Source of the DNA: a bacterium
GTDB taxonomy: Bacteria > Patescibacteriota > Patescibacteriia > UBA2169
Assembly (NCBI GenBank): GCA_002687895.1
Contig: NZBL01000009.1
Coordinates: 1 to 33,123, forward strand
Length of the DNA: 33,123 bases
Direction: 5' to 3'
Shown here: positions 16,598 through 27,204 of the stretch, piece by piece
How positions within the stretch are numbered: position 1 is the first letter of the stretch
Layout: every line of letters starts with the position of its first letter
Notes under the pieces: model-generated
Database searches by the model: none
What the model was told of the DNA's origin: nothing
Seen by the model: the letters and a program-made list of their open reading frames with translations, nothing else
Position numbers and translations under genes: made by a program

Positions 16598-16668
16598 AAG
16601 ATTTATATTAAATGATTATATTTATACATTACTATATATATAGTATATGCAATATGTGTAAAACTTAT

Positions 16669-16696
16669 TTGACAAATCAGCGATTTTTGCTAGTAT
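16669..16696 (+). promoter_or_regulatory. Sigma70-like promoter of leader locus A
   Basis: TTGACA (16669-16674), 16 nt, TAGTAT (16691-16696). Confidence 0.75.
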
Positions 16697-16704
16697 ATTT
16701 TTAT

Positions 16705-16758
16705 ATGGTTGAACAAAACAAGAACCTTATCCTAGTTTTTTCTATTATTGGCACGTAG
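16705..16758 (+). CDS. Putative leader peptide A: MVEQNKNLILVFSIIGT
   Basis: ATG 8 nt after the -10 box; TAG stop (16756-16758) directly abuts CCGAGG at 16759. Confidence 0.5.
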   Translation: MVEQNKNLILVFSIIGT

Positions 16759-16816
16759 CCGAGGTTCTTGTTTCGTTCAATTATTTTAAGAAGACCTCGG
16801 ACAAACCGGGGTTTTT
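16709..16816 (+). promoter_or_regulatory. Putative four-segment transcription attenuator A
   Basis: Segment 1 (16709-16727) pairs with 2 (16762-16780), 18/19; CCGAGGT (16759-16765) pairs with ACCTCGG (16794-16800); ACCTCGG alternatively pairs with CCGGGGT (16806-16812) followed by TTTT. Confidence 0.65.
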
Positions 16817-16851
16817 AAATTGTACCTTAACCTTAAAAGTGGAGGATGGTA

Positions 16852-17076
16852 ATGACAGAATTAATTCATGCTGAAGAGAGTGGTTTAATCGACCTTTCTG
16901 GGCTTACCTTCAGAGAAGCTCGTAAGGTAACTAAGAAAGATGTCAGTCATGCCAAAACTGCATTAAGAATTGCACATAATGCAGGAAAAGCTGAAGAAAT
17001 AGCTAAATGCGAAGAACGTCTTAGAGCTGCTCGAAGAGCGCGAGAACCCTATATACACCCTGGATCTATAAGATGA
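16852..17076 (+). CDS. Small helical charged protein controlled by leader A
   Basis: GGAGG Shine-Dalgarno then ATG 16852: MTELIHAEESGLIDLSGLTFREARKVTKKDVSHAKTALRIAHNAGKAEEIAKCEERLRAARRAREPYIHPGSIR. Confidence 0.7.
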   Translation: MTELIHAEESGLIDLSGLTFREARKVTKKDVSHAKTALRIAHNAGKAEEIAKCEERLRAARRAREPYIHPGSIR

Positions 17077-26790: not shown

Positions 26791-26806
26791 AATTGTGGAA
26801 AACTAT

Positions 26807-26834
26807 TTGACCAAATGTAAAATATCAGTATACT
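26807..26834 (+). promoter_or_regulatory. Sigma70-like promoter of leader locus B
   Basis: TTGACC (26807-26812), 16 nt, TATACT (26829-26834). Confidence 0.7.
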
Positions 26835-26843
26835 TAAGTTACC

Positions 26844-26891
26844 ATGAACGCACAAAATCTCGTTATTACTATTCTTAAGAATAGCGGATAA
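26844..26891 (+). CDS. Putative leader peptide B: MNAQNLVITILKNSG
   Basis: ATG 9 nt after the -10 box; TAA stop 3 nt before CCGAGG. Confidence 0.5.
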   Translation: MNAQNLVITILKNSG

Positions 26892-26893
26892 TA

Positions 26894-26949
26894 TCCGAGG
26901 TTTTATTGCATTTCACATTCATTCAAAGAACCTCGGAAAGAGGTTCTTT
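26894..26949 (+). promoter_or_regulatory. Mutually exclusive hairpins of leader B
   Basis: TCCGAGGTT (26894-26902) pairs with AACCTCGGA (26929-26937); alternatively AAAGAACCTC (26925-26934) pairs with GAGGTTCTTT (26940-26949). Confidence 0.65.
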
Positions 26950-26970
26950 AGTTCTTTAAGGAGCTGTAAA

Positions 26971-27150
26971 ATGACTGAGCAAAGATTACAAATAAAGGGC
27001 TATGAGGGTCTTCCTGTGTATTATCAGGAAGATGAGCCTGATAGTAGCGTTACAAGGGCTAGAGCCCAAAAGGTTCAGAAAGAGGAAGATAGGCCTAGTC
27101 ACGAAAGGGACGATGATGCTGGCGCTGGCATACAAAGGGGGCTTGAATAG
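26971..27150 (+). CDS. Small acidic/charged protein controlled by leader B, 59 aa
   Basis: AAGGAG Shine-Dalgarno; MTEQRLQIKGYEGLPVYYQEDEPDSSVTRARAQKVQKEEDRPSHERDDDAGAGIQRGLE. Confidence 0.65.
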   Translation: MTEQRLQIKGYEGLPVYYQEDEPDSSVTRARAQKVQKEEDRPSHERDDDAGAGIQRGLE

Positions 27151-27170
27151 ATTGTCGCCGCCATGCTGAT

Positions 27171-27204
27171 AAGGGAAGCAGAGTATTGCTTCCCTTATTT
27201 TTTT
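27171..27204 (+). terminator. Terminator after small protein B
   Basis: AAGGGAAGCA-GAGTAT-TGCTTCCCTT-ATTTTTTT. Confidence 0.85.

Follow-up and report, generated by a model that had tools for sequence, protein, structure and literature searches.

A conserved attenuator-type leader is used twice in one Patescibacteria-type genome and looks like a reusable translation-stress switch

Two loci, A and B, in the window (the whole stretch of 33,123 nucleotides analyzed, contig C9 of a 735-kb genome in 23 contigs) carry a real and conserved family of leaders that belongs to a known mechanistic class and is used twice in this one genome. Sequence comparison supports A and B being homologous copies of one leader. 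We consider it probable that both are copies of a single ribosome-mediated transcription attenuator, in which slow or stalled ribosomes would switch on the downstream gene, and the leader looks like a reusable translation-stress switch.

Loci A and B

Locus B lies on the forward strand. A promoter box TGTGGAAAACT (26794-26804), of a pattern shared with related leaders, is located 5' of the -35 hexamer TTGACC (26807-26812), which is separated by a 16-nt spacer from the -10 hexamer TATACT (26829-26834). The ATG at 26844 follows the -10 after 9 nt, so that transcription is predicted to begin at the start codon or close to it. It opens a leader ORF of 15 codons (MNAQNLVITILKNSG and stop, 26844-26891), and three nucleotides, TAT, separate the stop from the CCGAGG at 26895. 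The core of arm 1 (26854-26862) lies within this ORF and pairs with 26896-26904 of arm 2 (TCCGAGGTTTT, 26894-26904). Arm 2 is common to the 1:2 and 2:3 pairings and arm 3 (AAAGAACCTCGGA, 26925-26937) to 2:3 and 3:4; the 2:3 pairing, TCCGAGGTT/AACCTCGGA, comprises 11 pairs once extended (26894-26904 with 26927-26937). Arm 4 (GAGGTTCTTT, 26940-26949) forms a terminator-like hairpin with arm 3 (26925-26949), followed by the imperfect U-tract AGTTCTTTAA. Since arm 1 pairs with the CCGAGG arm, B has the full four-arm attenuator set (1:2 / 2:3 / 3:4). The fold has a z-score of -5.1. Further downstream are a Shine-Dalgarno sequence AAGGAG (26958-26963) inside a small predicted hairpin, an ORF for a charged protein of 59 aa (26971-27150), and an intrinsic terminator (27168-27199) with a subsequent T run, which resembles the terminator 3' of a lipoprotein-like gene in the related genomes G004 and G005.

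The promoter, the 15-codon ORF, CCGAGG/CCTCGG, the hairpin, the Shine-Dalgarno sequence, the 59-aa gene and the terminator were all found where an earlier note on this DNA had placed them, and the 3:4 hairpin lacks a clean U-tract, as the note said. It did not mention that the ORF pairs with the CCGAGG arm, nor the promoter box or the Shine-Dalgarno hairpin.

Locus A, also on the forward strand, has the same 1:2 / 2:3 / 3:4 set as B in a stronger form. The box pattern search identified TGTGTAAAACT (16655-16665) ahead of the promoter TTGACA-16-TAGTAT (16669-16696). The 5' half of the leader ORF (MVEQNKNLILVFSIIGT and stop, 16705-16758) makes up arm 1. Arm 2 (CCGAGGTTCTTGTTTCGTTCAATTA, 16759-16783) precedes arm 3 (GAAGACCTCGG, 16790-16800), and arm 4 (CCGGGGTTTTT, 16806-16816) forms a terminator-like hairpin with arm 3. 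A gene for a small protein of 74 aa follows (16852-17076; Shine-Dalgarno GGAGG at 16841-16845), with an alternative reading of 76 aa from 16846.

A further element was seen on the minus strand at 27472-27218 of the window, between the B gene and a LigD-type gene. A promoter (TTGACA-17-TAGTAT) precedes some 190 nt, in which CAAGG-TTCGAAT-CCTTG resembles the T-arm of a tRNA and a terminator of 16 bp is present. It folds well (z -4.8), and neither ARAGORN nor Rfam gave a call for it. We regard it as a candidate unclassified structured RNA.

Related leaders and chance tests

The local alignment of the B leader with the leader of G004 scored 46 (shuffles 17.9 ± 2.6; 0/1000 as high) and extends over GAGGTTYTTTAGTTCTTTAA 3' of arm 3. 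Alignment of B with the G006 leader scored 32 (0/1000) and with A 29 (2/1000). Besides sequence similarity, B has the other features by which the A family is recognized, i.e. CCGAGG-N30..32-CCTCGG, the box TGTGNAAAAYT and an ATG 7-9 nt past the -10. The covariance model gave B 25.8 bits, which is at background level in the class-wide scan.

The G004 homolog came from a pattern search and lies on the opposite strand (MIEQNKTLNLITLTNG and stop, 2 nt, CCGAGG). Its stems have 18 unbroken pairs in 1:2, 13 in 2:3 and 11 in 3:4, followed by a T-rich tract. A covariance model built from A and G004 found the G006 leader at 78 bits (MMVARIKNLNLFSVNRQ and stop), and among 389 genomes of the class nothing beyond G006 rose above background. 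Weak matches of the model in G002 and G003 were rejected as ordinary terminators. The tRNA-Tyr flank of G002 yielded a leader (MKLSNKNLITLNTG and stop), whose contig, C89, ends inside arm 2 before any downstream gene. The leaders of A, G004, G006 and G002 are all located 3' of tRNA-Tyr, in the case of A with one small reverse-strand ORF in between; no leader was found beside tRNA-Tyr in G001 and G003. The A copy is conserved in related genera, the B copy is found in its own genome only. G004 and G005 have the lipoprotein-like gene that is located upstream of B, the B-like terminator and a LigD-type phosphoesterase gene in direct succession, and this place, syntenic to B, contains neither leader nor 59-aa ORF. 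B was therefore either gained in its own lineage or lost in theirs.

Comparison of the A-type leaders (three full-length and the truncated one from G002) revealed compensatory changes at four pairs in 1:2 and one pair in 3:4. A search of relatives for further copies had been proposed in the earlier note, and leaders with compensatory changes were found in G004, G006 and G002. The leader ORFs have 14-17 codons, and the spacing from -10 to ATG is 7-9 nt in all five leaders. The first in-frame stop is located 0 (A), 2 (G004), 1 (G006), 2 (G002) or 3 nt (B) before CCGAGG, although the frame offsets differ. By base shuffling, a stop 0-3 nt before CCGAGG has a chance of 0.02-0.05 for each leader. 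That the stop position is kept despite differing frame offsets speaks for a reading of the ORF and for the importance of where it stops. The peptide core Q-N..L-[IV]-x-x-I proposed previously is present in A and B but does not hold for the wider family, where (K)N-L recurs together with aliphatic, Thr and Asn residues; the conserved start of the peptide coincides with arm 1, and base pairing thereby confounds peptide conservation.

In the whole 735-kb genome the pattern CCGAGGTT-N18..45-CCTCGG matches at A and B only, with a spacing of exactly 42 nt in both, and the control gave 0 matches; CCGAGG/CCTCGG is common to both loci, as had been claimed. A scan of both window strands for overlapping 1:2, 2:3 and 3:4 stems returned A (score 32) and B (score 30) and nothing else, compared to two matches in 40 shuffled windows (0.05 per window; scores 22 and 26), with thresholds that were picked with A and B in view and hence not blind. 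The same scan found none in a further 320 kb of the genome. In G006, which is richer in GC, 80 kb gave two matches, both lacking the layout of promoter and leader ORF. In a class-wide pattern search (389 genomes) and in the RNA-model scan the inspected matches besides A, G004 and G006 resembled coding sequence, tRNAs or ordinary terminators, and the generic CCGAGG pattern gave only uninformative matches in viral contigs. The specific arm-2/arm-3 pattern had one real match among 85,488 GTDB species, the MAG CG10_46_32, which is among the nearest kin and whose leader locus has the same sequence as the one in G004; there was none in viral contigs. The small size of the genomes would agree with Patescibacteria. 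No Rfam covariance model was matched above the gathering score.

Promoter hexamers a few nucleotides 5' of start codons are common in the genome that carries A and B, and leaderless mRNAs are therefore likely to be normal there. Two other arrangements of this kind were observed. At C5:16438-16600 of G000 the -10 of a promoter lies a few nucleotides before the ATG of a 27-codon ORF (MHHTYLLFVKQNNCFPKNTLITAFCGQ), and a terminator-like hairpin, CCTTATTTTAGCTAAAATAAGG-GATTTTTT, follows directly 5' of what reads as an rpoB gene; this is possibly a separate attenuator of RNA polymerase beta. At C2:9577 of G000, on the minus strand, a 25-codon ORF (MNQNKIKYSQNYKRSQSAGRHISSN) begins a few nucleotides past a -10, with the terminator hairpin AACCAGCCGAAAGGTTGG-TTTTTTG immediately 3' of it.

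Predicted switching and alternative readings

From the computed elements, homology, compensatory changes and mutually exclusive folds we infer a transcription start, translation of the leader, termination, a signal and a function of the product. The promoter with its extra box 5' of the -35 would give an RNA that begins at or beside the ATG of the 14-17 codon leader ORF. With no ribosome present, arm 1 would bind arm 2 and leave arm 3 free for arm 4, and transcription would stop. A fast ribosome that reached the stop codon, 0-3 nt before arm 2, would hide CCGAGG under its footprint; 2:3 would be blocked, 3:4 would form and transcription would again stop. If instead the ribosome was slow or stalled early in the ORF, up to about codon 11, it would mask arm 1 and leave arm 2 free. 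The 2:3 pairing (CCGAGG..CCTCGG) would then form before arm 4 exists, and RNA polymerase would continue into the gene for the small protein. A general slowdown of translation is the likely signal, caused by a ribosome-targeting antibiotic or by shortage of aminoacyl-tRNA.

The 1:2, 2:3 and 3:4 pairings are predicted to be mutually exclusive in the leaders. We modeled the ribosome as a 31-nt footprint on an RNA ending after arm 3. For P-site codons 0-11 the four leaders A, B, G004 and G006 formed 2:3 with a probability of about 0.8-1.0. Once the ribosome had reached the final codons or the stop, this probability was about 0, and 3:4 then formed once arm 4 was made. In ribosome-free RNA 2:3 was about 0 in A, G004 and G006, whereas ribosome-free B preferred 2:3 over 1:2 before arm 4 was made, which goes against the model. 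In full-length folds 3:4 beat 2:3 in A and G006 despite a masked arm 1. The decision must therefore fall during transcription, i.e. be kinetic, as is usual for attenuators.

The leader might instead respond to shortage of a specific amino acid such as Leu, Ile or Val, in the manner of trpL and leuL. Each leader peptide of 14-17 residues contains four to six of these residues. Tandem codon runs are however absent from A, B and the homologs, so that no run of codons for a single amino acid points to an effector; the residues differ among homologs, and the downstream genes encode small proteins without family match and not functions in biosynthesis or transport. We consider this explanation unlikely.

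Control could also be exerted on translation, as for erm genes, with leader ORF and hairpins gating ribosome access to the Shine-Dalgarno sequence of the small gene and not termination. Of the T-rich tracts after arm 4, those of G004 (TTTTTTAGTTCTTT) and A are the best and those of B and G006 are imperfect, and the Shine-Dalgarno sequence is mildly paired in small predicted hairpins in B and G004. The predicted pairing in B is present in both states but is stronger in the 2:3 state (-8.5 kcal/mol) than in the 3:4 state (-4.5 kcal/mol), which is the wrong direction for induction by stalling. Arm 4 is 21-40 nt from the start codon, and the Shine-Dalgarno sequence is free of arm 4 in the 3:4 state of A, G004 and G006. 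This makes control by translation only less likely in B, where the earlier note had suggested it; transcription-level control fits better, and we regard an erm-like switch as rather improbable for the family.

If the leader itself was the product, acting as a structured small RNA or through a short, hydrophobic and bioactive peptide, the small ORFs would be incidental, which would agree with a conserved leader ahead of proteins without recognizable homology. A Shine-Dalgarno sequence and a start codon follow 21-40 nt on in all four complete loci, though, and the alternative 2:3 pairing would serve nothing in a simple small RNA; we find this very unlikely. Chance hairpins near short ORFs are hardly tenable, for although hairpins and promoter hexamers near start codons are common in this genome, the homologs, the paralogy, the compensatory changes and the genome-unique motifs speak against them, and for A chance had already been refuted. 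Ribosome-mediated transcription attenuation is accordingly the reading we prefer.

Promoter box, small proteins and known systems

The box TGTGNAAAAYT is located 2-4 nt 5' of the -35 in all five leaders. Followed by TTG it occurs twice in the genome of A and B (at these two loci), and once in G002 and once in G006 (at the leaders). G004 has it at its leader and at an mraZ-type promoter, and of two occurrences in G001 one precedes a lexA gene. On the other strand the box reads TTTTNCACA, which fits the DnaA-box consensus TTWTNCACA. The box was also considered as a putative LexA operator. Second-type lexA genes (G001:C14, G006:C1 and G004:C25) carry TGTGG(A/T)AAAC, or a sequence close to it, immediately 5' of their -35, similar to the box of the leader promoters, but the sole lexA of the genome carrying A and B is without one. 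None was seen directly in front of the canonical lexA genes of G001, G004 and G006.

The products encoded downstream have 59 aa at B and 74 aa at A; G006 has one of 63 aa, and G004 a tandem pair of 62 and 57 aa. No homology was detected among them, in agreement with the claim that those of A and B are unrelated. Seven genomes of the family or order yielded no relative of either the 59-aa or the 74-aa protein, and genome_contigs yielded none of the 59-aa protein. Searches of the small proteins against Pfam, NCBIfam, PHROGs, PADLOC and PDB gave no usable match; hits to ribosomal L32 (0.08) and a tRNA hydroxylase in PDB (0.008) were too weak and were set aside.

The view of the leader as a reusable module holds in that two copies precede unrelated genes; these are two copies in one genome only, and any wider reuse would be hypothetical. 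It is conceivable, but doubtful, that a cassette made up of the box promoter, a leader ORF with transcription starting at its ATG, and the four-arm attenuator duplicates and takes up small genes that are unrelated and change fast, so as to bring them into a translation-stress regulon of an ultra-reduced Patescibacteria-type genome, and that the box adds an input from DNA replication or damage. With one leader in front of unrelated genes, the two loci give a simple example of how a regulatory module is reused, and this is open to reporter assays. If the switch reads ribosome speed, it would reveal what Patescibacteria respond to and would mark two small proteins as probable translation-stress proteins. 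Patescibacteria are described in one account as having smaller ribosomes and only about half as many ribosome biogenesis factors as is usual (PMC12641178).

The earlier note did not know of any class described with such a layout. The arrangement of leader ORF with anti-antiterminator, antiterminator and terminator corresponds to the ribosome-mediated attenuators, a well-described class; it is the leader family alone that appears undescribed within it, with no match in Rfam and no paper on it found in the literature search, which also found no leader-peptide attenuator in Patescibacteria. The attenuators of the trp, his and ilv leaders of E. coli operate by 1:2, 2:3 and 3:4 pairing, with a stop codon that adjoins arm 2. 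The A and B leaders share this logic and the stop beside arm 2, but have no control codon run, no biosynthetic operon and no Shine-Dalgarno sequence of their own for the leader ORF. In mycobacteria, upstream short ORFs have been proposed as attenuators and leaderless transcripts are common, but there clusters of cysteine codons precede cysteine-related genes (PMC4633059), and A and B are without such a cluster.

The uORF of a DUF1127 gene in Sinorhizobium meliloti is part of the leader of a gene for a small basic protein and senses poor translation, so that inefficient translation induces the small DUF1127 protein; it differs in being presumably Rho-based, with the attenuation element in the uORF and no 2:3/3:4 switch (PMC12218461). 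The short toiL uORF of topAI-yjhQ in E. coli senses several translation stresses, and stalls at many positions can induce this one switch; unlike A and B it acts on the ribosome binding site with Rho-dependent termination, has no four-arm intrinsic attenuator and targets a toxin-antitoxin pair (PMC12121999). By analogy, the nearest published logic is that of the vmlR leader of Bacillus subtilis. Its sequence is unrelated to the A and B leaders, its uORF has 3 codons and its own Shine-Dalgarno sequence, and its target is an ABC-F resistance ATPase, with NusG pausing shown; as predicted here, the uORF lies in an anti-antiterminator hairpin, and a stall leads to the antiterminator and prevents the intrinsic terminator, with a fourth hairpin that sequesters the Shine-Dalgarno sequence (PMC9226507).
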